A stretch of 41,680 nt of DNA from a virus. The translations under genes were made by a program, and so were the position numbers. The stretch covers positions 1 through 41,680 of the IMG/VR virus record IMGVR_UViG_3300019142_000003; one strand, written 5' to 3'. The notes beneath the pieces were generated by a model. That model was not told the origin of the DNA, did no database searches, and saw nothing but the letters and a program-made list of their open reading frames with translations. Positions 5,642-40,350 of the stretch are shown one piece after another. Each line of letters begins with the position of its first letter. Positions within the stretch are counted from its first letter, which is position 1.

Positions 5642-7795
5642 TTACAAATAAATAGTGATTCGGTCGTCGTCGTACTCGACATTCACAATGTCGTGCGGCG
5701 ACGGACGCCTGCCCCGTAGCCCACCGGGATTTGTGACAATCGGAGTGCCGACGCGAATGGGCGCTTGCTGCACGTCTTCAAGGTGTTGGTAGTAGTCAAC
5801 CGGGTATGCAACCGTGTCGAGCTTTACAGTCAGGTCAGACTTTTCATCGAGCGTCTGAATGCGAAAATACTCGAAGCCGCAACGGTCAAGTTTCTTGGAG
5901 ACGATTTTGATTACTTTGTAGGGGTGAAGGTCGAGCGTATCTATGAATGACGCCTGAAAATTAGCCTGCCGATTATTCTTCAGCCCGCCCTTATCGAACG
6001 CTCCTAAATCCAAAATCCGATTCCCACAGCGCACCGCCTGCCCGAAATCAGTAACGCCGAAGAGCACTAATTCATCTTTAATCACGCGCCGCGACTTATC
6101 GCCGTGGGCAATCCCGGCAGTCCATTGCGCCTCCTCGTCTTGGAATATGAGAGGGCGTTGAATGTAGTCATGGGCTTTATCGTAAAACTTGACCAGCAGA
6201 TAGTTGGTCAACTCGCCTTCTGGCTTCGCCTTTGGGGTACGTAGCGTTGATTGCATCCCCTCGAAGAGAATCGGTCGAACGGTTGGATCGCGCGCAATCA
6301 GGTCGAGGTCATCAGTGAAGACCGGGACGTTGCTCAAGTCTTCTTTCCTGAGCGGCATGATTCGTTCCTTCCCTTGAAACGGGAAGGGCAACGTCAGGAA
6401 GCTAAACAGACAGGCATCATCAATCTGCTGTTGGGTAGAACGCTCAAGAATCTCCGCGCTGAAACTCGCCCGCGTGGAGGTGTAGTGAACGCCTGCGGCG
6501 TCTTGAAAGCCCGCCAGAGCGTTATGCCACGCTGCGGCTTCGATCCAGTCCTCGATGACATAGCGTGCGTGGTCGCGTCCGTCACCCCAGCGTTTGTTCG
6601 TCAACATCTCCAGAATCCAGTAGGCCGGAATCATGGTGAACTGCTTGACGTAAGTCTGCGGGTCGCTGTAGACGCGCACATCGCGATAACCTTTAATTCG
6701 GCAGGAAGGACGGAATGTCGAAGCGTTGGCATTACGAAAGTCCCCCTGCACAACACCATAGAAGTGCGCGGTGTAAGAGTAGTTGTTGACGCTCTGGCTG
6801 AAGAAAGTAGCTGACTGCCGATACTCGCCCAGGCGCAGGTTTCGATGCTCAGGCGTGATAAGCCTATCGGCCAGCGTTGGCTCGCTCAGGGATTCGACCG
6901 GCCCTTCACCCGCGTCGGCCAGCACTCGCGCGCTACCCTTGTCCGGGTACTTCGTGTTTGGCTCGGTCAGCCATGCGAGCACATCCATTTCGCGAATCTT
7001 CCACTCGCCCGCAATGACGCGACGGGACTGCGAAAGATTAGACTCATTCCCTTTTGTCGTGGCTTGGAGGTTCGGCCCCCTCGTCTGGCTAACGGTTACA
7101 GTATCGGTGGCCGTGTCTCCACCGCCGTACTCAAGCGTGTCGCCGATGCGCTGCTGGCAGCCGGTTGTCGTCTTAGGACAAGAGCGGAAGGGTTGCCCGT
7201 TTTCATCAAGGAGGCCATGAGTGCCGCCCTCAATTTGCCGGTCATAACGGCAGGGATTCTCGGCGAGCAATTGGGGGTCTTTAATTAAGCCGCCGAAAGG
7301 AAACGGGCAACCCGCTCCGACCGGGCGATTAGGCAGCGAAAGCTGAGAGGAGCGGAAGCCGAACGAGGCTGGCACTGTGGTCATACTGCCGCCCACATCT
7401 GAGGGCGTGCCCAGATGCCCGAACCAATTACGCTTGATGAGCAAATCAACTTGCGGCAGGTAATGCCATAGCTCGACACGCACGCCTTCCCCGTGGAGAT
7501 CGCAGAGGCGCGCAATCTCGGCGTCATCATCTATGAAGTTGAGTGTGATTGATGAATCGGCAATGCTCGAAGAGTTCTGAAAACTCTGAAAGACCTGCGC
7601 CTCGAAGCGCGCCTCTATAGGAACGAGCGTTAGTCCCTCATATTCCGGCAATTCATCATACTTCGCCTGCGCGTAGTAGATCGTGCCCGTCGGCGCAGGC
7701 CAATGGACAGCTATCAACTCGCCAACCTGTACACCTCTGAGCGAGCGCAGGGCGGCGAGCTTCGCCTGAATTGTCGGGTCGAGTTCGAGGAGCAT
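5642..7795 (-). CDS. Tail hub protein combining gpL-like and gpJ-like parts
   Basis: This 717-residue protein begins MLLELDPTIQ. Residues about 1-215 resemble tail proteins of the lambda gpL/DUF2163 type. They include four cysteines (about 163, 182, 206, 213) placed as in the Fe-S-binding part of gpL. A central segment (AYWILEMLTNKRWGDG, about 395-410) matches the NP-ALYDILTN-RFG pattern of gpJ-like central fibre/hub proteins. The C-terminus is beta-rich. The gene follows the tape measure and a distal tail gene, which is the usual place for the hub. A fused L/J arrangement is inferred from these motifs only. Confidence 0.7.
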   Translation of the reverse strand: MLLELDPTIQAKLAALRSLRGVQVGELIAVHWPAPTGTIYYAQAKYDELPEYEGLTLVPIEARFEAQVFQSFQNSSSIADSSITLNFIDDDAEIARLCDLHGEGVRVELWHYLPQVDLLIKRNWFGHLGTPSDVGGSMTTVPASFGFRSSQLSLPNRPVGAGCPFPFGGLIKDPQLLAENPCRYDRQIEGGTHGLLDENGQPFRSCPKTTTGCQQRIGDTLEYGGGDTATDTVTVSQTRGPNLQATTKGNESNLSQSRRVIAGEWKIREMDVLAWLTEPNTKYPDKGSARVLADAGEGPVESLSEPTLADRLITPEHRNLRLGEYRQSATFFSQSVNNYSYTAHFYGVVQGDFRNANASTFRPSCRIKGYRDVRVYSDPQTYVKQFTMIPAYWILEMLTNKRWGDGRDHARYVIEDWIEAAAWHNALAGFQDAAGVHYTSTRASFSAEILERSTQQQIDDACLFSFLTLPFPFQGKERIMPLRKEDLSNVPVFTDDLDLIARDPTVRPILFEGMQSTLRTPKAKPEGELTNYLLVKFYDKAHDYIQRPLIFQDEEAQWTAGIAHGDKSRRVIKDELVLFGVTDFGQAVRCGNRILDLGAFDKGGLKNNRQANFQASFIDTLDLHPYKVIKIVSKKLDRCGFEYFRIQTLDEKSDLTVKLDTVAYPVDYYQHLEDVQQAPIRVGTPIVTNPGGLRGRRPSPHDIVNVEYDDDRITIYL

Positions 7796-7797
7796 CG

Positions 7798-8277
7798 TTA
7801 AAGTTGGGAGCCGCCCTCGCCGAGCGAACCGTCTTCGAGCGTAGTCACGCCGGGCACGCGCACGTAGCGGAGTTTGAGTTGCGAACTGTAGAGGCGGGTC
7901 GCGAACAGTTCACGCTCGTATGTCCAGCCCTCGGATACCACTAGGAAACGCTTGTCAGTCGCGAGGTCTCTGATAACGAAGGGGCGATCTATCTCCACAT
8001 ACCCGGTCTTGTGACGGCAGAAAAATTCCCAGAGGTAAGTTGCCCTCGCTTCGATGGTTGCCGGATTCCGCTCGACCGGACTGTCCAACGTATCGGGCAA
8101 GACTTTGTAAACGAGATTCCAATAACGATTACCGGCGCGCGAGCCCGTCAGGATGGAGCGGTAGAAGCCCGCGCCCTGGTTATGACGGATGCCTTCGATC
8201 AGAATGCCTTCGACAAGCCCGAAGTCGCCTGTTAATTGCAATTCTTCGTATGGGAGGTCGTTACTGAGCAGTTGCAT
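7798..8277 (-). CDS. Distal tail protein candidate
   Basis: This 159-residue protein sits three bases from the tape measure stop and two from the hub start, the slot of distal tail or lambda gpM-like proteins. It carries aromatic-rich beta segments (RYWNLVYKVLP, ATYLWEFFCRHKTGY, RFLVVSEGWTYERE). The IEARATYLWEFF and PFVIRDL pieces resemble small minor tail proteins that cap the tube. The assignment is by gene order and fold impression, not a firm family match. Confidence 0.6.
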   Translation of the reverse strand: MQLLSNDLPYEELQLTGDFGLVEGILIEGIRHNQGAGFYRSILTGSRAGNRYWNLVYKVLPDTLDSPVERNPATIEARATYLWEFFCRHKTGYVEIDRPFVIRDLATDKRFLVVSEGWTYERELFATRLYSSQLKLRYVRVPGVTTLEDGSLGEGGSQL

Positions 8278-23006: not shown

Positions 23007-24779
23007 TTACCTTGCATATCCGGTCTCCGGCATGATGCCCATGAAACCCGAGTAGTTCCCCATCAACGTCCGCGCCACGAACCAACCGATTGCGAGCGCC
23101 ATAAAAAGATCGTCCTCGTAACCTGAGAGCGCACTAAAGGAGCCGCCGTCTTTCCACACGACCGTCAACGCCTGGTCGCAAAATGCCTGGCTCGACAATC
23201 CGAGTTCGCCGGTTCTGAGCGCCTCTTCGAGCGCGAGACCTGCGAGCGGCTTGTTTGCCGTGTCGGTCGGAAAGCCGTACTGCGATTTTTCTAGCGCCTC
23301 TTCAACGGAGATTCGTCCGGCATCGAGGGCACGTCTGGTCGGTGCGTCGATGTGTTTGTAGAGCACATCCTCATAACCGAGTTCGACCAGCTTGAGGGTC
23401 GTGGCATAGCCGGTGTTATTGCGCTCTGGCACGATATAGGCGCGGTTGTAACGGTCGCTGATTTTGGCGACGCGCACGGCGAGCAGATCGGGCGAGAGTT
23501 TCAAAGTCTCCTCGAAGACCTGCGCGCCGCTCAGGAGGTCGAGCACTTGAATGGCGGCCGGGTTGCCGCGCTCCGTGCCCGCGCTTGTATCAACCGCCAC
23601 AAGGTACTGACGGCCTTCGAGCGGGTCTGCCGGCTGGCAAGTCACCTTCAGGAACTCTGCGCGCACGACCGGGCGTCCGGTCTGCTCGAAGCAATCCTTA
23701 TCGTTTTCGGGATACTCGATGAGGAAGGTCTGCTCGCCTATCTCCTGAATCTTGGCTCGACGCCATGCGAGATACTCGGCGACTTCCGACGCATGCCACT
23801 TCGTACCCTTCGGGACATAACCGCGATTGATGAGGTGGAGCAGGATGCGCGCCGCAACTTTGCGCTCCGCACTGGTGACAACCGGCTTTTCTTTCGGCTC
23901 AGGCTTGCCGGGGTTGATGATGAAGTAACGGCCATCGAGTTTGATGAACCGTGCCCCCTCGACCCGGCAGCTTCGCCTCCACCACCATTGATAGAAGTGC
24001 GAAGTCCAACCGCCCCGGCCTTTCTTTCCCTCGCTGTAAAGCGAATGAAAGAACTCGATGCCCCCCGCCGTTGACTCGACCGTGATGTCTGCGTCGGCCG
24101 CGCACGCCTCAAGAATGGCCGTCGCCGCCTTCCGCGCGTCGCCGCGCATGAAAGGCACTTCCGTCACCAGCACGTCAGTGATAGTGTCGCCGCGCGGGCT
24201 ATCCTCGAACCCCGGCTGCACGCCCGTCGTGGTGACGATGCTGTCAACCGTACCCTTCGCCATGTCCTGAAATTCGATAACTTCCGGTGTGAAAGTAATC
24301 GTCTCAGGTCTGAGGTGTTCAGGCAGATTCCGGTACATCGTGCGCACGTCGCGGCGGAACTTTCGTTCCGTCTGCGGGTTGTGCGCAAAGATGCGAACAT
24401 TGCGACCTGAAAGCACCACGGCATTGGAAAACTTAATCGCCGTGAAAAGGGCGGACGAGCCGCCCTTACGCATTTTCAGAACAACATCCTTGCCGGTCAG
24501 CTTCCCCCAGATGTCGTCCTGCATGTCGTTGAACTTGAGCAGGACGAGCTTATTCTTGTCGAAGGCATCGCGAACGTAGATGAAGTTTTCAATGAACAGT
24601 CGGCGGATTGCTTTATCCGCCCATCGCTCGCGCCACCACGAGAGCGGCACGGTGCGAATATCAACAGTCAGTTCCTCGCCGCGCTGGCGTGCGAGCCGGG
24701 CGCGCGCGCCATCAGCGGCAGCGCGTGCCCGCTCAAGATTTAGTGCCGCCGTCGGCTGCTGAACTTTGTTCTTCGCCAT
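23007..24779 (-). CDS. Terminase large subunit
   Basis: About 590 residues from ATG 24779 (an upstream TTG is less likely). The N-terminal ATPase part has a Walker-A-like KMRKGGSSALFTA and an acidic Walker-B region DTITDVLVTEVPFM, followed by ITVESTAGG (coupling motif). The C-terminal nuclease has LVAVDTSAGTERGNPAAIQV with metal-binding Asp, YIVPERNNTGYATT and GYEDDLFMALAIG, the usual RNase H-like triad. It packages DNA into proheads. Transposable phages package host-flanked genomes by headful, which fits this enzyme. Its start overlaps the small subunit gene by about 47 bases. Confidence 0.9.
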   Translation of the reverse strand: MAKNKVQQPTAALNLERARAAADGARARLARQRGEELTVDIRTVPLSWWRERWADKAIRRLFIENFIYVRDAFDKNKLVLLKFNDMQDDIWGKLTGKDVVLKMRKGGSSALFTAIKFSNAVVLSGRNVRIFAHNPQTERKFRRDVRTMYRNLPEHLRPETITFTPEVIEFQDMAKGTVDSIVTTTGVQPGFEDSPRGDTITDVLVTEVPFMRGDARKAATAILEACAADADITVESTAGGIEFFHSLYSEGKKGRGGWTSHFYQWWWRRSCRVEGARFIKLDGRYFIINPGKPEPKEKPVVTSAERKVAARILLHLINRGYVPKGTKWHASEVAEYLAWRRAKIQEIGEQTFLIEYPENDKDCFEQTGRPVVRAEFLKVTCQPADPLEGRQYLVAVDTSAGTERGNPAAIQVLDLLSGAQVFEETLKLSPDLLAVRVAKISDRYNRAYIVPERNNTGYATTLKLVELGYEDVLYKHIDAPTRRALDAGRISVEEALEKSQYGFPTDTANKPLAGLALEEALRTGELGLSSQAFCDQALTVVWKDGGSFSALSGYEDDLFMALAIGWFVARTLMGNYSGFMGIMPETGYAR

Positions 24780-25305
24780 ACTCAGCGGCGGCCCTTTCAA
24801 GCACGGCGTCGGCTACCTTCAACAACTCGCTCGCGGCGCGGGCATCTATCTCAGGCAACCAGTCCAACAACCGTTCCCAGAACGTGACAAAGGCAGTTAA
24901 GGTGTCGCTTCTGGCCTGCAACTTCGTGCGCGCCTCAATGATGAGTTTGCAGAGGTCACGAAACTGCCAGACGAGATCGCGATCTACGCCCTCACCCTTC
25001 GCCCCCTTCGCATCGAGTTGCGCCTTTACGCGCTGGCGTACCTGCTCGACATCGCGGATGAGTTGTTCGTCTGCTGTCAGCGTGCCCTGCTCGGTGCTGA
25101 GAGCGAGCTTCTGCTTGAGAGCGGCTTCCCATCCGTACTTTTCAATCCAGCCGATTTTCTCTCCTCGGCTGTAAAGGTTCTGCTTCGACCAGCCCGGCCA
25201 AGTCCGGCGCATCTCCACCTCGATGCGGTCGTGCTGCTGGCCGTTAAAGCGCAGGTAAAGTTGAAGACAGGCTTCGATAGCTTCAGACGGATAGCTGAAC
25301 GGCAT
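24733..25305 (-). CDS. Terminase small subunit-like DNA-binding protein
   Basis: About 190 residues beginning MPFSYPSEAIEACLQLYLRF. The upstream in-frame extension covers the previous gene and is rejected. The N-terminal 60 residues look like a helix-turn-helix of the phage terminase/DUF1804 kind (MRRTWPGWSKQNLYSRGEKIGW). A long helical middle follows (LIRDVEQVRQRVKAQLDA), then a C-terminal helix near the large subunit overlap. Gene order directly before the large subunit supports the call. The small subunit recognises the packaging start site. Confidence 0.75.
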   Translation of the reverse strand: MPFSYPSEAIEACLQLYLRFNGQQHDRIEVEMRRTWPGWSKQNLYSRGEKIGWIEKYGWEAALKQKLALSTEQGTLTADEQLIRDVEQVRQRVKAQLDAKGAKGEGVDRDLVWQFRDLCKLIIEARTKLQARSDTLTAFVTFWERLLDWLPEIDARAASELLKVADAVLERAAAEYGEEQSSAADGGTKS

Positions 25306-25307
25306 CG

Positions 25308-25595
25308 TCAATCCTCGATTTGAGGGGCGGCCTGTTGCGCTTCCAACTCCTGCACGCGCCGTTTCAACCTTCGCGCCTCGCGCCGCCATCGCAACTTCTG
25401 TTGCTCCATCACAGCGCGCACAACATGGCGGACAATCACGTCGAGACCTTTGCAGAGCAGGCCGACGAGAATCGAAGCGAGCACCGGATTCATGAGCGTC
25501 GAGAGCATCGCCCACGTACCCGCCAAAAAAGACAGCGCCACAATCGGGGCATTCACGCCCATCCCACTGCTATCCATGTGTACTTCCCCGTTCAT
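25308..25595 (-). CDS. Small membrane protein, holin candidate
   Basis: This 95-residue protein has one or two hydrophobic segments (APIVALSFLAGTWAML, PVLASILVGLLCKGLDVIV), followed by a very basic and then coiled-coil tail (RRLKRRVQELEAQQAA). This fits small holins, with a charged cytoplasmic C-terminus. It lies two genes after the endolysin. An alternative ATG at 25577 has a better GGGGA site and would remove six residues. Holin function is inferred from size, topology and neighbours. Confidence 0.6.
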   Translation of the reverse strand: MNGEVHMDSSGMGVNAPIVALSFLAGTWAMLSTLMNPVLASILVGLLCKGLDVIVRHVVRAVMEQQKLRWRREARRLKRRVQELEAQQAAPQIED

Positions 25596-25616: not shown

Positions 25617-26489
25617 CTACTGTTGCTGGGGCGAGGTTGAACCCTCCTCGCGGAGTTCGGGCGCGGTTGGATCAAGCCGCTGGAGGTCTTCACGTAGGCG
25701 CTGCGTCACGCGCTTATATCGTTTCTCCGCTCGCGCGAGGATGCGCTTGGTCTCCTCATCAACGGGAATCGAAACGCCATCAGCGAATCGCCTCTCCAGG
25801 TCAGCTTGCAGAAAGGTCAATCCAACCTTGCCACTCCTCAGACTCATGAAGACGTACAGTTGAGTTTTGGGATTCTTGATCTGAATGATTTGGTCACTGA
25901 GTAGTGAATCCAGCGCGCCGGTGAACTCGCCGATGAGCGATGCGATATTGCCCCGCTCGGCCTCGTCCATGTTCTGCACTTTCAGGAATCGACTCGTGCC
26001 CTCTTCGCCGATGCGATTCGCTTTCAAGAGATGGCGCGTCGCCGCTCGCGCGGTCTCAGGCTTAATCGCCTGCGCGGCGTCGAGATCGTGAAAGGTGTTT
26101 GCCGCCTCTTCGATTCCAATCGCCGTGGCGTCAAGTGCGTTCGCAGTGTTGCGCATCTTCTGCACGATCTGGGCGCGCACGTCCGGCTTCCCGGCATCTT
26201 CGCGAGAGACCTTCGGACAGCCGGTCGTGACGATGGTCAAGGCTAAAACCGGCACGAACATGAAGGCCAAGCCGTAAAACCGCCTGTCGAAAACCTTCTT
26301 GCTCGGATGTAACAGGGCTCTGCCCAGGGCGGCAGCGACCGCGCCGATTGTGAGCGCGACGACCCGCGCATAGGGATGTCCCTCGAAGATTGCCGGGTCG
26401 AGCGTGCTGATAACAACGACGACCAGGCCGAGAAGCGTGATAGCTCGCGAGCGCGAGAAGCCGTTGAGCAGTGACGAAAGTTTCTTCAT
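25617..26489 (-). CDS. Membrane protein of the lysis region, function unknown
   Basis: This 290-residue protein has three hydrophobic segments in the first 92 residues (ITLLGLVVVVISTL, VVALTIGAVAAALGRALL, YGLAFMFVPVLALTIVTTG). The third ends at a Cys (TTGC) that only weakly resembles a lipobox. The remaining 200 residues are helical and soluble (NTANALDATAIGIEEAANTF, FTGALDSLLSDQIIQI). AGAGGAAA precedes the start. Position between endolysin and the small membrane protein suggests a role in lysis, perhaps holin- or spanin-like. No family was recognised. Confidence 0.6.
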   Translation of the reverse strand: MKKLSSLLNGFSRSRAITLLGLVVVVISTLDPAIFEGHPYARVVALTIGAVAAALGRALLHPSKKVFDRRFYGLAFMFVPVLALTIVTTGCPKVSREDAGKPDVRAQIVQKMRNTANALDATAIGIEEAANTFHDLDAAQAIKPETARAATRHLLKANRIGEEGTSRFLKVQNMDEAERGNIASLIGEFTGALDSLLSDQIIQIKNPKTQLYVFMSLRSGKVGLTFLQADLERRFADGVSIPVDEETKRILARAEKRYKRVTQRLREDLQRLDPTAPELREEGSTSPQQQ

Positions 26490-26503: not shown

Positions 26504-27007
26504 TTATTTGCGCAAGAACTCCTGCGCGAGCGTGATGAGTTGGGCGAGGTCAACACCCGAGCCGGGGCAAGTTTTCCCACGGCGTATTTCGTAGTGCGCG
26601 ATGACGTGTTCGCGGTCGAGCGTGATTCTCCAGCGCCGGGAAATGTCAGCGAGCAATTCTGCCGAGGCTTTCAGTTGCGCTTGTGTCAGCGCGTCGCCGC
26701 TCCGGCCTTCGTGCTCGATGCCGATGGTGTAAAAGTTCGGATTGACACCCGCCTTGACGAGCTTCCGCGACGGGCGGTCAACCACTCCTGCGTGCTGTGC
26801 GGTGTGCCTCTCATCAACGTGTTGATGAACCTCTCCGCGTTTGCCCACGCTGTAGTGAGCAGAGACTTTCGAGTCCCGATTCGCGAACCATGCATCTGTG
26901 CCCGCGAGCGTGCCGTCCATGATGTGAATGACAATCAACTCCGGCTTATAGCCATTGCGGGAAGATGTGAAATTCGGGGAAGGTTTCTGGATGATCTTCA
27001 TTGCCAT
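26504..27007 (-). CDS. N-acetylmuramoyl-L-alanine amidase endolysin (Amidase_2 type)
   Basis: This 167-residue single-domain enzyme cuts the bond between muramic acid and the peptide stem. Visible family features are LIVIHIMDG with zinc ligand His28, SAHYSVGKRGEVHQHVDE, the substrate-groove segment TIGIEHEG, and HYEIRRGKTCPGSG with the second His (about 138) and a Cys (about 147) in the third ligand position, as in T7 lysozyme. No signal peptide or binding domain is seen, so a holin must let it through. The start overlaps the HD-GYP stop; an ATG at 27001 with a 4-base overlap is an equal alternative. Confidence 0.9.
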   Translation of the reverse strand: MAMKIIQKPSPNFTSSRNGYKPELIVIHIMDGTLAGTDAWFANRDSKVSAHYSVGKRGEVHQHVDERHTAQHAGVVDRPSRKLVKAGVNPNFYTIGIEHEGRSGDALTQAQLKASAELLADISRRWRITLDREHVIAHYEIRRGKTCPGSGVDLAQLITLAQEFLRK

Positions 27008-27573
27008 TCAACTTTGGGAATTGATTTGAACGCCCCTACGACTTCGGGGTCGAACTGATGCCCGCTTCCATCCACGATTTCATGCAGGGCGACCGCATAG
27101 GGAGCGCCAGCCCTGTAACACCTGTTGCGCGTGATGGCATCGAAGGTGTCGGCCACCGCGAAGATGCGAGCCGCACGGGAAATCGACTCACCCTCCAGCC
27201 CGCGCGGGTAGCCCGTTCCATTTAAGCGTTCGTGATGCTCTTCAACCACGAGCACAGAGGCTTCAGGGAAGCCGAGCGAGCGCAGCATTTCCGCTCCGAT
27301 TACAGGGTGAGTGCGCATGTGCGCCCACTCGTCTTCCGTCAGGCGACCCGCCTTGCAAAGAACAGAATCCCGAATACCGATTTTCCCGATGTCGTGCAGT
27401 GCCGCGCCGAGTTCGAGGGCGCGCATATCTTCCGCGTTCAGCCCCATCGTGCGACCCAGGCGCAACGAATGGTCTGTGACGCGCGCAACGTGGTCGCCGG
27501 TTTCAAGGTGCCTTGCACGGAGCGCGAGGAGCAGGGCTGATGTCTGTGCGCGCAGGACGCTTTCGTCGCTCAT
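26998..27573 (-). CDS. HD-GYP domain cyclic-dinucleotide phosphodiesterase
   Basis: This 191-residue protein is a bare HD-GYP domain with no receiver or sensor part. Catalytic features are intact: HDIGK at 60-64, HP near 89, HHERLNGTGYP at 113-123, ARIFAVADTFDAIT at 135-148 and the C-terminal GSGHQFDPEVVGAF. HD-GYP enzymes hydrolyse c-di-GMP, and some hydrolyse 3'3'-cGAMP. GAGAGG precedes the ATG. It sits between the Gam-like and endolysin genes in the late operon. It may alter host biofilm or motility state, or blunt a cyclic-nucleotide defence; both are inference. Confidence 0.88.
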   Translation of the reverse strand: MSDESVLRAQTSALLLALRARHLETGDHVARVTDHSLRLGRTMGLNAEDMRALELGAALHDIGKIGIRDSVLCKAGRLTEDEWAHMRTHPVIGAEMLRSLGFPEASVLVVEEHHERLNGTGYPRGLEGESISRAARIFAVADTFDAITRNRCYRAGAPYAVALHEIVDGSGHQFDPEVVGAFKSIPKVEWQ

Positions 27574-27585
27574 CTCTGCCTCTCC

Positions 27586-28077
27586 CTACTGCTTTCCGAA
27601 GCGCACCGTATGGTTGCGCTTGGCGTGCGCCAATTCGTTGACACGAGTGCCCAAAAACATCTCGGCTTTGCCGACGAGCGTTTTGAAGCACGACCAGAAG
27701 GCAGCGGAGCGTTGCGACTCCGGCACAGCATTAAAGAAGGTTTTGGTGTCTATCTCGCGCTCGGTGCGCGTCGCGACTTCAACGATGGCGGTGGCGATAG
27801 AGACCCGGTTGATCTTGATGACGCCTTTCGCGCTAATGCCCGCCATCATCGCGGCCGTGATGTCATTTTCCAGTTGGGAGATTTGCTCTTGGAGAGGTTC
27901 TAATTTCCGGTTGGCACGTTGATGAATGGGAGCGCATCGTTGCTCGAATCGCGCTCGAATAGGCTCGATTGTTTGGTCACGTTCAGCCTCGATGCGCTCC
28001 CGCTTCCCCTGCAACTTCGACCATTGCAGGAGTGCCTTTGCGATTGATTTTTGTGTCGGCTCAACCACGAGTGACAC
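27586..28077 (-). CDS. Gam-like protein (host nuclease inhibitor / DNA-end binder)
   Basis: This 163-residue protein has a long coiled-coil first half (LLQWSKLQGKRERIEAERDQ, PIHQRANRKLEPLQEQISQL), then a beta-containing part (GVIKINRVSIATAIVEVATR) and a final helical part (FFNAVPESQRSAAFWSCF). The helical hairpin followed by strands is the layout of Mu Gam, a Ku-like dimer that protects DNA ends from exonucleases. The start is a GTG after a G-rich site. It is the first gene downstream of the 9-bp repeat array. The similarity was judged by eye and is moderate. Confidence 0.55.
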   Translation of the reverse strand: MSLVVEPTQKSIAKALLQWSKLQGKRERIEAERDQTIEPIRARFEQRCAPIHQRANRKLEPLQEQISQLENDITAAMMAGISAKGVIKINRVSIATAIVEVATRTEREIDTKTFFNAVPESQRSAAFWSCFKTLVGKAEMFLGTRVNELAHAKRNHTVRFGKQ

Positions 28078-28110: not shown

Positions 28111-28200
28111 TTGTCCGCACTTGGCTGAATTGTCCGAATTGTCTTAATTGTCTGGTTTGTCCGATTTGGCAGGGTTGTCCGCACCTGTCCAACTTGGCAA
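28111..28200. repeat. Ten 9-bp tandem units related to ATTGTCCGA upstream of the late operon
   Basis: Starting at 28111, successive 9-base units read TTGTCCGCA, CTTGGCTGA, ATTGTCCGA, ATTGTCTTA, ATTGTCTGG, TTTGTCCGA, TTTGGCAGG, GTTGTCCGC, ACCTGTCCA and ACTTGGCAA. All keep the TTG(T/G)C core or a near form in phase. They fill the gene-free stretch (28078-28240) just upstream of the leftward Gam-like gene. They may be an operator array for a late activator, or a simple-sequence expansion. Confidence 0.75.
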
Positions 28201-28240: not shown

Positions 28241-28480
28241 TTAGGGGATGGATTGATAGACCTCTGGCTGATGGGCGCGAACCCACTGCTTGAAGGAATC
28301 CTCATAGACGAGCCAACCAGCCTTCGTCTTCTTTCCCTCAAGTGAGCCATCCTCAATGCTGCGAATGAGAGTGCGCCGGGAAGGCACAGGATCGAGGATG
28401 CGTGTCTGTTTTAGGATGTCCTCAATGCGGGAGAGACGCAAAGATGGACGAGTCGTAAAGCCGAAATCGTAACGAACCAT
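28241..28480 (-). CDS. Small helix-turn-helix protein (excisionase/MerR-like), possible late regulator
   Basis: This 79-residue protein reads LRLSRIEDILKQTRILDPVPSRRTLIRSIEDGSLEGKK and then TKAGWLVYEDSFKQWV. That is the pattern of short winged helix-turn-helix proteins such as excisionases and MerR-N-terminal folds: the S-RTL-R-IEDG helix pair followed by a G-W-VY-DSF wing. It lies just upstream of the repeat array and the late operon, so a late-gene activator role (the position of Mor in Mu) is plausible. No clear ribosome-binding site is visible. Confidence 0.62.
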   Translation of the reverse strand: MVRYDFGFTTRPSLRLSRIEDILKQTRILDPVPSRRTLIRSIEDGSLEGKKTKAGWLVYEDSFKQWVRAHQPEVYQSIP

Positions 28481-29135: not shown

Positions 29136-29552
29136 TTATATCTTATGAATAACATGTGTCACAACTCCCCAAATTGAGAAATTATCTTTGGCACGCAGAC
29201 GACGCTTCTGATATTTGATATTTGCAGGTACGAGGTAAAGGCTACGGTCTGATTGCCTCAAGAGCTTGACTGTATATCCACTGGAAACTGATGCAATAAC
29301 AATATCGCCAGATGCAGCAGGCCGCCCGCGGTCAACCACCAATAGATCGCCGTCATAGATGCGAAGATCAATCATCGAATCGCCAGTTACACGCAGGTAG
29401 TAGATCGCGTCAGACCCGCCCTGAACATACTCATCTAAATCAATCCATTCGACAACTTGCTCGACATCAACAGGATTACCAGCGATGACTGGAATGGTCA
29501 TCATCGGCCTCTTCAGTTCAGCACTCTTGCGAAAGTAAAGCTGTAAGCCCAC
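29136..29552 (-). CDS. UmuD-like S24 self-cleaving peptidase
   Basis: At 138 residues it has the length of E. coli UmuD (139). The catalytic Ser59 lies in VTGDSMIDLRIYDGD and Lys96 in GYTVKLL. The likely cleavage pair Ala24-Gly25 falls at the position of Cys24-Gly25 in UmuD. The C-terminus IWGVVTHVIH also matches the family. It has no DNA-binding domain. The gene begins (GTG) five bases after the stop of the helix-turn-helix gene. Together they look like a LexA/cI repressor split in two, or a phage UmuD sensing RecA-ssDNA. The start is embedded in AAGGTG, so coupling to the upstream gene is likely. Confidence 0.85.
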   Translation of the reverse strand: MGLQLYFRKSAELKRPMMTIPVIAGNPVDVEQVVEWIDLDEYVQGGSDAIYYLRVTGDSMIDLRIYDGDLLVVDRGRPAASGDIVIASVSSGYTVKLLRQSDRSLYLVPANIKYQKRRLRAKDNFSIWGVVTHVIHKI

Positions 29553-29556
29553 CTTA

Positions 29557-29955
29557 TTACCCCGCTTTCTTCTCTTCTGTCGTTGTTAAGTCTAAGCCAA
29601 ACGAAGGCGCACCGTTTATATGCCTTAGCTCTTCACGAGCAATTCTTCGCACGAATTTCTCTAAATTTATTCGGTCAAGAATCTGTTCCTCTGCGGCTTT
29701 TAGCTCGTCAATTGTCTGTGGCCCCTGTCCTGTCAATAACCAGTGAAGTGAACTACCAGTTGAGATCGCGATTTTCTCTAGGTTCTCAATTCCGGGAATC
29801 TCACCTTTCTCCCATTTACCAACCGCCGTCTCTGAAAGGTCTACTTCCCGCGCAATAACAGCTTTTGCGCCCCGCCCAGGACTGATTCCGAAGGCAATAC
29901 AAATTCGATTGAAAAAATCAGCTTTCTCAATCATAGGTTGAGAATTTATTGACAT
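29557..29955 (-). CDS. Helix-turn-helix repressor (cI/XRE type)
   Basis: About 132 residues. The XRE fold is clear: FFNRICIAFGISPGRGAKAVIAREVDLSETAVGKWEKGEIPGIENLEKIAISTGSSLHWLLTGQG. The recognition helix lies around SETAVGKWEKG. After it comes a helical linker (LKAAEEQILDRINLEKFV) and a charged tail, but no peptidase domain, which is encoded separately by the next gene. The start is uncertain: GTG at 29967, ATG at 29955 or ATG at 29934; none has a good ribosome-binding site. It is transcribed away from the Ner-like gene and probably keeps the early promoter off in lysogens. Confidence 0.82.
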   Translation of the reverse strand: MSINSQPMIEKADFFNRICIAFGISPGRGAKAVIAREVDLSETAVGKWEKGEIPGIENLEKIAISTGSSLHWLLTGQGPQTIDELKAAEEQILDRINLEKFVRRIAREELRHINGAPSFGLDLTTTEEKKAG

Positions 29956-29977
29956 TTCTAAACCCACGGTTTACCAT
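29949..29977 (+). promoter_or_regulatory. Rightward early promoter
   Basis: TTGACA at 29949-29954 and TACCAT at 29972-29977 are separated by 17 bases, a good -35 spaced from a fair -10. It points at the Ner-like gene starting at 30012 and overlaps the 5' end of the repressor gene. Confidence 0.6.
29959..29973. promoter_or_regulatory. Palindromic operator inside the early promoter
   Basis: TAAACC-CAC-GGTTTA is a perfect inverted repeat with six-base arms, lying between the -35 and -10 of the rightward promoter. Its place is ideal for repressor or Ner binding. Confidence 0.55.
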
Positions 29978-34492: not shown

Positions 34493-36175
34493 ATGCCAAA
34501 GTTTACATTAGGCACTTCTGACATTCAAGAGATTCGCGCGGCTATGCACGGTCTGCGAGGCGCGCAGGCAAAGGCTGAGGCCGTGCGATTAGCATCTCAT
34601 CACCGTTGTTCTGTCTCGCGCGTTTACGAAATCACAAAGGGTTTGCGCCCGGCACGCGCTACGCGCTCTGACAAAGGGCAACGCCGCGCAGACATCCTGA
34701 CGCACCCCGGCCTGTTGCTCGCCACTGAGCAGATCGTGACGCGCAACCTCGACCCTGACCTTGCTCTCGAATTGGCAGAAGCAAACGGGCACGAGATACC
34801 AGTCTCGCTCGCCACCTTCCGCCGTCACTTACGCGAGCATGGCATTAACCGCTCCGCTCTGCGGCACGGCCGACGCCCACATCGCAACTTCGAGGCGGAA
34901 ACTCCCGGCGACATCTTCCAGCTTGATTTCTCAGCGGTGAAAGAACGCTGGGTTGACATCAAGACCCGCCGCATCCTTCACGTCTCTACGCTCGAAGTCT
35001 CAAAAAACCATCCGAACACAAACAACTCACGCAGGCCGCTCTGGAAGTTCTCATTGGTTGACGACAAGTCGCGCTTCAAATACGTGCGCTTCGTTGACTG
35101 CCCGCGCCCCAATTCGATGTACGTCATCGAATTTCTTCTCGAAGCCTTTCGCACGATGGGCATCCCGCGCGTGCTTTATTCCGACAATGACTCGGTTATC
35201 AAATGCGGTCGCATGCGCCGCGCCGCTTCGATTCTCGACCGCGCGTTTAAAGACTCGGGCGGCTTCAAGTTGGAGCAACACCTGGCTGGCAATCCGCAGG
35301 CAACCGGCAAGGTAGAAGTCGGCCACCAGATGGTTGAGAAGTATGAGAAGTTAATCGGCTGTCTCGAAGAAAAGCCCAGCCTCGAAGGATTGCAGAAGTT
35401 CGTTGAAGACCTCTGCGACCGTTACAACTGGCGCGAGTGCCGGGCGACGGGCGAGAAACCGGCTCTTAGCTTTCGCGCCACGACAAAGCCTCTACGCATC
35501 CCACCGCCTGCACTGCTCGACTCCGCATTCATGGCGGATGAGTTCCCGCAGAAAATCAAACCCAACCTCACAGTCAGCTTCAAAGGCGAGAGCTATCAAC
35601 TGCCGCGCAAGCGCCCCTTCGTGGACTTCATCGGCACAGAGATCATCGTCGTCTGGCCCCCCGAAACCGACTATTTCATTCTCGTCGCCGCAGACGGCAC
35701 AGAGTATGAAATTGAGCGCAAGGCCGCTCGGCCTGATATGGCTGGCGAGTTCAAGACCCCTGAAGAGTCAATCCAGCAGCAAACCATCAAGCGCGTAAGG
35801 GCGTCCGCCGCCGCACGCAAGCAGGCCAACCGCGAGGCTGGCGAGACCCTGAAAGTGCCGGGCTTTCACGTTCCGCTCAAGAAGGGCGCGGAGCGACCGG
35901 CTGTCATGCCTCAAGCGAAGCAGGAAACCAAGCCAGAACTGCTCGCCGCGCTCGGCGGCGGGGTAGTGCCACCTTCCGCGACCGGCGGTCGATTCGTCAC
36001 CTACTGGCAAGCATTGGAGACCTTCATCGCAGAGGAACTTTTACAACCGACTCCCGCAGACAAGGCGTGGCTCAAAGTCATTTTCGCTGGTCGTGAAGAG
36101 ATGCTCGATACAGACCTGCGCTCTGAGATTGAGGCGCGCAAACCATCCAGCATTGAGATTCAGAGGAGGGCTTAA
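34493..36175 (+). CDS. MuA-like DDE transposase
   Basis: This 560-residue protein should catalyse strand transfer of the phage ends. Residues 1-60 contain a helix-turn-helix (AVRLASHHRCSVSRVYEITKG), and another lies near 100-120 (VSLATFRRHLREHGINRS). The catalytic core gives Asp145 (IFQLDFSAVKERW), Asp231 (VLYSDNDSVI) and Glu275 (ATGKVEVGHQMVEKYE). A beta-barrel-like domain follows (TVSFKGESYQLPRKRPFVDF). The C-terminus is basic, then acidic, and is the likely contact for the ATPase. Its stop overlaps the ATPase start. Together with the inverted terminal sites this defines the element as transposable. Confidence 0.92.
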   Translation: MPKFTLGTSDIQEIRAAMHGLRGAQAKAEAVRLASHHRCSVSRVYEITKGLRPARATRSDKGQRRADILTHPGLLLATEQIVTRNLDPDLALELAEANGHEIPVSLATFRRHLREHGINRSALRHGRRPHRNFEAETPGDIFQLDFSAVKERWVDIKTRRILHVSTLEVSKNHPNTNNSRRPLWKFSLVDDKSRFKYVRFVDCPRPNSMYVIEFLLEAFRTMGIPRVLYSDNDSVIKCGRMRRAASILDRAFKDSGGFKLEQHLAGNPQATGKVEVGHQMVEKYEKLIGCLEEKPSLEGLQKFVEDLCDRYNWRECRATGEKPALSFRATTKPLRIPPPALLDSAFMADEFPQKIKPNLTVSFKGESYQLPRKRPFVDFIGTEIIVVWPPETDYFILVAADGTEYEIERKAARPDMAGEFKTPEESIQQQTIKRVRASAAARKQANREAGETLKVPGFHVPLKKGAERPAVMPQAKQETKPELLAALGGGVVPPSATGGRFVTYWQALETFIAEELLQPTPADKAWLKVIFAGREEMLDTDLRSEIEARKPSSIEIQRRA

Positions 36176-37656
36176 TGCAGCGACACCCATCACCATACTT
36201 AGCGAGCCTCGACCCCGAACCGGATCGCGTCGAGTTCGGCAAACGTCTTGAAGAGTTTCGCCTGCGCCATGAACTTTCGATACGAAGCATGGCGTCTATT
36301 TGCGGCGGGGATAAAATCACACTTCACAAATCAACTTTATACCACCTCATCAGAGCCACTGGCTCACGCAAACTGGCTCACAAACTCCAACCTCTGGTTG
36401 CCGCAAGCCTGAGAAATTTCCTAAGTCAGAAGGAACTCACAAGCGCCCAAATTGAGGCCGAACTCAAAGGCATCGCCGACATCAACATACCGCTCTTTTA
36501 CGGGAGTGAGTCCGTAAAACTCGCTGAGGGAAAGACGTGGGGCGAGCGTTTGGAAGCGTTTCGTCTCTCCATGAATCTGAGCTACCGGCAACTCTGGTTT
36601 GCATGCGGCGGCAAGGATGTCATCACGCAGAACACCATCATGCACGTCTGCAAGCAGGGGCGCATTTACAAAGAAGAGTACGTTAAATCACGTCTCTCCG
36701 AACATCTGCGCAATTTTCTTATGCGCCTCGGCAAACAACCTCAGCAAATCGAACAACTGCTTACCACCATCTTCAACGGAGAGGACACCATGATTGCACC
36801 GAGAGCATCCCTACCAATTGAAACGCAGCAATTTTTTGGTCTCCGTCGTGACCCATTCACGGGCGACCCACGTTCGCGCTCGGAAGTATTCACCACGCCC
36901 CAACTCGACCGCGTTGCCGCGCAGATTGAAGATGCCATCAATTATCAGGGCTTCACGGTCGTGACCGGCGAGATCGGCTCAGGCAAGACGATTCTCAAGC
37001 GACGTATCGTTGACCATGTGACGAACTCTAACGGGAAGCTGAAACTATTCTGGCCTGAGTTCTTCAACATGGATCGCGTTCATTCCGGCAGCATCGTCTC
37101 TTTCCTACTGAGCAGCTTCGAGCAAACTATCCCGTCAGACCTTGTTGCGCGAGCGGCGAAGCTCAAGCGCATTCTCGCCAACGCCTCGGAAAATGGCGTG
37201 CGCGTCGCCCTCGGATTTGACGAGTGCCATCACCTTCACGACCGCCTGCTAACTGCTCTCAAGAATTTCTGGGAGATGGGGAACGGCGGTTATGACCGCT
37301 ACTTGGGTGTGGTGTTATTCGGCCAGCCTCAATTCGAGGGGCGTCTACAGGATTTCCAGTTCCGCGAAATCTGTGAGCGCATTGATGTGGTGCGCATGCC
37401 CTCTTTTGAGAAGTCCGCTGCCGACTACATCGCACATCGCATCAAGCTCGCCGGTGGCGACGCCGAGAGAATCTTCGACCGAAGCGCCATCAAGCTCTTG
37501 TCGAAGCAAGCCACAACCCCGCTCGCCATCGGGAATCTCGCCAACGCCGCCCTGCTCAAAGCTCACACTCTCGGCGAGCGCAAGGTACTCGCCGATTTCC
37601 TCAAAACTGATGATGACGAACCCCGCGTGCGCGCTGTCCGGCGCGTCGCCAGCTAA
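36175..37656 (+). CDS. MuB-like AAA+ ATPase with duplicated N-terminal helix-turn-helix
   Basis: This 493-residue protein starts in the transposase stop. Residues 20-85 (FGKRLEEFRLRHELSIRSMASICGG...LRNFL) and 122-183 (WGERLEAFRLSMNLSYRQLWFACGG...LRNFL) are two related helix-turn-helix units. The C-terminal part is an ExeA-type AAA+ domain: FFGLRRDPF, Walker A GEIGSGKT at 265-272, Walker B GFDE at about 347-350, then CHHLHDRLLTALKNFWEM and a GQPQFEGRL sensor segment. MuB-type proteins bind target DNA, stimulate the transposase and give target immunity. The doubled helix-turn-helix is unusual. Confidence 0.88.
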   Translation: MQRHPSPYLASLDPEPDRVEFGKRLEEFRLRHELSIRSMASICGGDKITLHKSTLYHLIRATGSRKLAHKLQPLVAASLRNFLSQKELTSAQIEAELKGIADINIPLFYGSESVKLAEGKTWGERLEAFRLSMNLSYRQLWFACGGKDVITQNTIMHVCKQGRIYKEEYVKSRLSEHLRNFLMRLGKQPQQIEQLLTTIFNGEDTMIAPRASLPIETQQFFGLRRDPFTGDPRSRSEVFTTPQLDRVAAQIEDAINYQGFTVVTGEIGSGKTILKRRIVDHVTNSNGKLKLFWPEFFNMDRVHSGSIVSFLLSSFEQTIPSDLVARAAKLKRILANASENGVRVALGFDECHHLHDRLLTALKNFWEMGNGGYDRYLGVVLFGQPQFEGRLQDFQFREICERIDVVRMPSFEKSAADYIAHRIKLAGGDAERIFDRSAIKLLSKQATTPLAIGNLANAALLKAHTLGERKVLADFLKTDDDEPRVRAVRRVAS

Positions 37657-39462: not shown

Positions 39463-40350
39463 ATGAAGTTTTCAAAGATTCGATGGACAGGATTTACTTG
39501 GAATTTCTTCACCGGCTGCGATGAAATCAGCACCGGCTGTCTTCATTGTTACGCCCGCGTGATAGCGGAGAATCCGCGTTTTGCATCCGCGTTCCCCAAC
39601 GGCTTCAAGCCAACATTCAAACCTCACAAACTCCGCGACCCCTACAAGGTCAAAGAGCCGCACTTCTGTTTCGTCAATTCCATGTCCGATTTCATGCACA
39701 AAGATTTCACTGATGAGATGCGCGACCAGGCGATGGAAGTGATGCTCCAATGCGACCGCCACATCTATCAAATCCTCACCAAGCGAGCGCAGGCACTCCC
39801 GCGTTACGTCAACGGCTGGCTCAAGCGCAAAGGTCTCGCGGCCGTTCCCAAGCATATTTGGTTTGGCGTTTCCATTGAAACCAATACCTACACCTTCCGC
39901 GCAAACTTCCTTCGCGAAGTGCCCGGCGTTCGTTTCATCTCCGCAGAACCCTTGCTCGCGCCCCTTTCCACGTTAAGCCTAGAAGGTATTCACTGGCTTA
40001 TCGTCGGCGGCGAGAGTGGCAACGGCTCGAACAATTATCGCCGGATGTCATCCACATGGGCTGTCGAACTCCTGATGAAAGCCCGCTCGACGTTCTTTGT
40101 TGATTCGCTTCTGGGGAAGATGACCTCACCCGCTTACTACTTCAAACAGTCGAGCGGCATGCGAACTGAGACCGGGATTGAACTCATTGGCGAACGGTTT
40201 GAGGAATACCCGTTCTATCCCAATGCGCTCTCTCGCGAAGAGTATCTCGCTATCCAGGCCGACCTGGCCGAGCGCGCGGCTGAACGGAAAGTAGCCCGCG
40301 CCGCTCGAATCTCACAGGCGACTATCCAACAGGTTTTGACGGAGCGATAA
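39463..40350 (+). CDS. Gp37/Gp68-type DUF5131 protein with radical-SAM-like Cys motif
   Basis: This 295-residue protein has KIRWTGFTWNFFTGCDEISTGCLHCYA at the N-terminus with Cys19, Cys26 and Cys29 (CX6CX2C), typical of DUF5131 phage proteins and likely to hold an Fe-S cluster. HFCFVNSMSDFMHKDF, IYQILTKRAQ, HIWFGVSIET and RFISAEPLL with IHWLIVGGESG are the other family hallmarks in order. Members occur in many phages and bacteria, but their reaction is unknown. A late helix-turn-helix-like tail (KVARAARISQATIQQVL) is extra. Confidence 0.85.
   Translation: MKFSKIRWTGFTWNFFTGCDEISTGCLHCYARVIAENPRFASAFPNGFKPTFKPHKLRDPYKVKEPHFCFVNSMSDFMHKDFTDEMRDQAMEVMLQCDRHIYQILTKRAQALPRYVNGWLKRKGLAAVPKHIWFGVSIETNTYTFRANFLREVPGVRFISAEPLLAPLSTLSLEGIHWLIVGGESGNGSNNYRRMSSTWAVELLMKARSTFFVDSLLGKMTSPAYYFKQSSGMRTETGIELIGERFEEYPFYPNALSREEYLAIQADLAERAAERKVARAARISQATIQQVLTER

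Follow-up and report, generated by a model that had tools for sequence, protein, structure and literature searches.

A stand-alone HD-GYP domain gene at the head of a Mu-like phage lysis cassette, and a possible role in removing c-di-GMP at lysis

Why would a phage carry, between Gam and its lysis genes, a cyclic-dinucleotide phosphodiesterase domain that has no sensor? The question is raised by an IMG/VR virus record of 41,680 bases, the whole of which was analysed and is called the window here. Its + strand encodes a Mu-like transposase (A protein; 34493..36175, phrog_310 6.2e-34), which marks the element as a transposable phage, and a Mu B-like transposition ATPase (36175..37656; PF13401 and phrog_296), while repressor-like genes, Gam, lysis genes, terminase, portal, head and tail genes lie on the − strand. 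Since the closest relatives of its terminase in cellular genomes, searched with the large subunit (23007..24800, −), are prophages in MAGs of Pyrinomonadaceae and other Acidobacteriota, we infer that the host is acidobacterial.

The gene in question (26998..27573, −) starts with ATG, encodes 191 aa and lies among co-oriented and closely spaced lysis genes. It begins 12 nt past the stop of a gene for a Gam-like DNA-end-binding protein of the Mu Gam family (27586..28077, −, GTG start; weak matches to PF07352/phrog_491, below the Pfam cut-off), and its own stop overlaps, as ATGA, the start of an N-acetylmuramoyl-L-alanine amidase, the endolysin (26504..27007, −; Amidase_2 1e-28, PHROG lysis families), given an alternative amidase ATG at 27001. 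Next come a probable membrane or secreted protein of the lysis cassette (25617..26489, −, 290 aa), so called from its place and hydrophobic N-terminus and without a confident match in the database comparison, and a small membrane protein (25308..25595, −) whose homologues in L010 and L095 are also close to HD-GYP genes. The probable small terminase subunit (24733..25515, −) lies upstream of TerL and is kept in relatives, the listed start of its reading frame being probably too early. On the other side, upstream of Gam, is a conserved 79-aa protein (28241..28480, −) of a family present in nearly all relatives; this family has no Pfam match, and L002 has two copies of it and L083 three. A scan for promoters and terminators gave sites no more numerous than in shuffles.

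The 191-aa product matches Pfam HD_5 (E=4.5e-32) and HD, and the Pfam scan of it found no receiver, PAS, GAF or other domain; its reading frame opens just 12 nt before the ATG, and PHROGs holds no family for it. The preliminary description of this DNA had therefore been right to call it a stand-alone HD-GYP protein without a sensor domain, and right to place it beside Gam and lysis genes. By sequence its PDB matches are V-cGAP3, PmGH and PA4781. An AlphaFold2 model (pLDDT 91.2) searched with Foldseek matched 4mcw, 4r8z and 9rbz (E about 1e-10, query TM about 0.81-0.85), with PmGH the closest solved structure and PA4781 and DvhD the other best fold matches.

Residues were mapped by a phmmer alignment to PmGH of Persephonella marina (PDB 4MCW; query TM 0.81) and read with the PmGH mutational data (PMC4159591). 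All eight PmGH metal-ligand positions are kept (E185, H189, H221, D222, H250, H276, H277 and D305), the H...HD...H...HH...D metal motif being H28, H60-D61, H89, H113-H114 and D142 in the window protein, and E24-T25-G26 corresponds to the E/D-T-G signature of the trinuclear HD-GYP subfamily. The GYP loop is G121-Y122-P123, the K225 position is K64, the D308 and R314 positions are also kept, and Arg154, likewise basic, stands at the K317 position; in PmGH, R314 and K317 contact guanine (PMC4159591). The two proteins differ in that PmGH has an N-terminal regulatory (GAF) region, whereas the window protein is a bare domain with His22 at the D183 position. The earlier statement that all catalytic motifs are intact is thus correct for the motifs it named but not for this position, which is catalytically important, a D183A mutation abolishing PmGH activity (PMC4159591). 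Because this essential position is a histidine, enzymatic activity of the window protein is likely, not certain.

The same slot is occupied by an HD-GYP gene in two diverged relatives, L010 (49% identity) and the Pyrinomonadaceae prophage L083 (50%). The order in L010 is Gam, HD-GYP and M15 peptidase, with a TGATG overlap between the last two genes, and in L083 a Gam remnant fused in frame to HD-GYP is followed, with an ATGA overlap, by a small membrane protein. In the fused frame (L083:4538-5278) about 50 codons resemble the start of Gam and the remaining Gam is missing; since Gam is mostly gone there and HD-GYP is kept, HD-GYP has outlived Gam in this prophage. Homologues of Gam stand in the same place in L002, L009, L010, L013, L014, L023, L086 and L087, and with the Gam protein alone as query no relative was found in viral contigs or deposited phages. 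In relatives without HD-GYP, such as L009 and L086, Gam is directly followed by the endolysin or the lysis cassette. The slot is filled in three of about 16 phages of the group in which it can be read, L016 and L091 being near-copies. Since about 13 relatives with a readable slot do not have the gene, it is, judged from gene content, dispensable to the group, and the slot reads as a place of optional insertion precisely at the junction of Gam and the lysis genes. One of these HD-GYP-less relatives, L009, has a stand-alone receiver domain (6975-7484; Response_reg 2e-17) between its lysis and terminase genes.

A single-sequence HD-GYP query gave no match in IMG/VR viral contigs, presumably owing to the stringency of exact peptide patterns, and the further IMG/VR copies came from alignments used as queries. 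Five more phage contigs, from quite different phages, carry a stand-alone HD-GYP. It follows an Rz-like gene and a small membrane protein and precedes Gam in L092; it comes after two small membrane proteins in L095; in L152 and L157 it lies after an Rz-like gene or a small membrane protein and before TerL or a similar large ORF; and in L093 it is near a small membrane protein and before TerL.

A second phage group carries receiver-HD-GYP or PAS-HD-GYP proteins; Pfam detects a receiver in L154, L155, L158, L159 and L162, PAS in L164, and nothing besides HD domains in L160, L163 and L165. Many of these HD-GYP genes adjoin an endolysin or a membrane protein: the gene follows an amidase in L155, precedes a membrane protein and a GH25-like ORF (a label read from the sequence, not from a profile) in L156, and precedes small membrane proteins in L158, L160, L162, L163 and L165; the 419-aa HD-GYP of the 156-kb contig L226 (4293-5552) lies between a membrane protein and ORFs that are lipoprotein-like and M15-like, the latter label having no profile match, and that of L229 lies between two membrane proteins. 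The pattern was not seen in L159, L164, L166, L168, L096 or L098. Several of the five receiver-HD-GYPs are in or near lysis or packaging modules, and the receivers of L154 and L158, read by eye, keep the phospho-acceptor region, so host kinases could act on them. L164 holds two HD-GYP domains from different tree branches (5647-6606 and 7432-8004) on one viral contig.

An automated count found a small membrane protein close by on the same strand for 9 of 17 HD-GYP genes, compared with 25 of 397 control genes from viral contigs (6.3%; binomial P about 2e-7, kinship ignored). Simple hydropathy was the basis for calling the neighbours membrane proteins, few of which match any PHROG lysis family; the automated gene calls also miss several of the lysis-type neighbours seen by eye, those of the window included. 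Among deposited phages the matches were 29 unannotated scaffolds from human faeces, of which the two opened carry the mark UNVERIFIED, and a record of a Microcystis phage with coaD and secE among the neighbours. These matches look bacterial and were dropped as phage evidence; they stayed in the first tree as outlying rows.

In a maximum-likelihood tree of 70 sequences all eight stand-alone copies from phages fall into a single clade (support 100/98), which persisted (99/97) when Thermus, Deinococcus and Methylobacterium sequences were added. Thermus plasmid HD-GYPs, with up to 51% identity, fell outside it. The clade is nested within acidobacterial REC-HD-GYP response regulators of the RpfG type, the closest cellular sequences being L120 (53% identity), L102, L105 and L121-L123; these are set in chromosomal frames of 379-460 aa, L105 has a receiver, and its C-terminal ending VPREDW resembles the IPKVEW of the window protein, whereas the phage clade has no receiver. 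Across 396 Acidobacteriota genomes every relative at E<=1e-65 lies in a frame of at least 356 aa, and the only one scanned with Pfam, L105, is REC plus HD_5, so the bare domain appears to be a phage form. The receiver/PAS phage HD-GYPs (9-10 sequences) form a separate clade (100/100 in the 70-sequence tree, 99/97 in the enlarged one), and it thus seems that lysis cassettes acquired HD-GYP on two or more occasions. Beyond Acidobacteriota sampling is thin, and wider sampling could still change the single origin of the stand-alone clade.

The reading that we favour, while giving it somewhat less than an even chance, is that the gene encodes a phage-adapted c-di-GMP phosphodiesterase derived from a REC-HD-GYP protein, made late and lowering c-di-GMP at lysis. 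The phage would have acquired an acidobacterial response regulator's output domain; loss of the receiver would have left this domain without built-in regulation. Since the gene heads the lysis cassette and its translation is probably coupled to that of the first lysis gene, its product would be made late. Its substrate would most likely be c-di-GMP, hydrolysed probably with the help of a third metal site like that of PmGH, and the host pool would be drained as lysis begins. The phage might gain from a lower output of exopolysaccharide or adhesins, which would let virions escape more easily from soil cells embedded in matrix; alternatively, the timing of lysis might be tuned.

The preliminary description had raised another role, the disarming of cyclic-nucleotide defence; the enzyme would degrade a cyclic-dinucleotide alarm (3'3'-cGAMP or similar, as in CBASS) and so protect the phage. 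Some HD-GYPs do cleave 3'3'-cGAMP (PMC8177086), one of the sequence matches of the window protein, V-cGAP3, is a cGAMP-specific HD-GYP, and presence in some relatives and absence from others is common for defence-related genes. Among known systems the phage anti-CBASS enzyme Acb1, compared by its description in the literature, would resemble the window protein as a phage enzyme that removes a cyclic oligonucleotide. Of 119 sampled Acidobacteriota, however, just 8 have SMODS cyclases, and none was found in G001, which harbours the L083 prophage, with the reservations that draft genomes may miss genes and that SMODS covers only part of the CD-NTases. GGDEF domains, on the other hand, are abundant in the three acidobacterial genomes checked (8-15 in each, with 15 in G001). 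Moreover a defence gene does not require a place in the lysis cassette, and no residue specific to the window protein favours cGAMP over c-di-GMP. Because the guanine-contact positions are kept, GGDEF domains are abundant, and SMODS is rare and was not found in G001, removal of c-di-GMP at lysis is favoured over CBASS evasion, which is possible but less likely; nor would a general counter-defence gene need the recurrent association with lysis genes. The idea would also not be a new kind of counter-defence, as had been suggested, since the HD-GYPs of jumbo phages have already been predicted to be counter-nucleotide defences (PMC7824862). Those proteins resemble the present one as phage-encoded phosphodiesterases expected to act on a cyclic nucleotide; they differ in being predictions for jumbo phages, and the passage on them mentions no placement in lysis cassettes.

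Rather unlikely is a role in lysogeny or lifestyle, whereby c-di-GMP would be lowered in the lysogen or early in infection, altering motility, adhesion or the choice between lysis and lysogeny. The element is temperate and Mu-like, its repressor-like genes (29136-29967, −) lie upstream on the same strand as the HD-GYP gene, and for phage VP882 lower c-di-GMP shifts the lysis-lysogeny outcome on surfaces, raising lysogenic conversion (PMC11315295), which makes an effect on lifestyle a serious alternative. Stop/start overlaps with lysis-type genes in three phages (the window, L010 and L083) argue for the lysis step instead, and the other phage HD-GYPs sit in quite different genome plans, whose shared feature is mainly the lysis neighbourhood.

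Could the protein instead have given up catalysis, binding c-di-GMP to sense the lifestyle of the host and timing lysis through protein contact? A non-catalytic HD-GYP receptor exists, DvhD (PDB 9RBZ; PMC13090378), which shares the fold of the window protein (query TM about 0.84) and a c-di-GMP pocket, and the phage copies do vary at the active site. The D183 position is replaced in three of the eight (His in the window and L092, Ser in L083), the E185 carboxylate is gone in four (L010, L095, L152 and L157), and the H276 position is Asn in L010. No copy has lost D183 and E185 together, both of which are present in all nine acidobacterial relatives compared. The positions of H189, H221, D222, K225, H250, H277, Y285 and D305 are invariant in all eight copies, as is the GYP loop, whereas DvhD is inactive and has lost both HD and HH, which the window protein retains. 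We consider a receptor role improbable, given that almost every metal ligand is invariant, which is not the case in DvhD. From the alignment, the phage lineage looks to be changing at two active-site positions with the rest of the metal centre held, and catalysis in the clade may be retained but possibly altered. The chance that this is a recently captured bacterial gene without function for the phage is very small: the gene is absent from most relatives and its family is common in bacteria, but relatives whose copies are 49-50% identical have it in the same slot, the frames open and the site residues conserved, and its phage-only clade spans very different phages.

Removal of c-di-GMP at lysis may extend beyond this phage. 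It is possible, though we hold this more tentatively than the reading for the window itself, that HD-GYPs were recruited into lysis cassettes at least twice, once as bare domains and once with a receiver or PAS domain, and that c-di-GMP removal is a regular and sometimes signal-controlled step of lysis or virion release. Phage HD-GYPs as such are not new; the lysis-cassette lineage appears to be, and the literature searched, which covered few subscription papers, gave no account of an HD-GYP gene placed in a lysis cassette. If the reading is right, phages take control of the main lifestyle signal of bacteria at the moment when they lyse the cell, a coupling for which the same literature yielded no paper, and there would be a testable reason for a dependence of phage release on the state of biofilm or matrix among soil bacteria. 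The phage clade would then mark a family of small phosphodiesterases without built-in regulation. These considerations also temper the reading of every phage cyclic-nucleotide phosphodiesterase as an anti-CBASS factor.

Two further features of these phages were observed. At the right end of the window phage a DUF5131 protein (39463-40350, +; Pfam 3.3e-56) adjoins a weak HNH-like ORF. The gap preceding Gam contains degenerate direct repeats with a 9-nt period in several phages (28111-28168, −, in the window; 292-364 in L010; 4295-4323 in L009; about 6370-6410 in L002). The repeat unit varies among phages, being CGGACAANN-like in some and TTATCAANC-like in others, and is followed by a common TAGTGTG at the start of Gam; the repeats are possibly a regulatory array.
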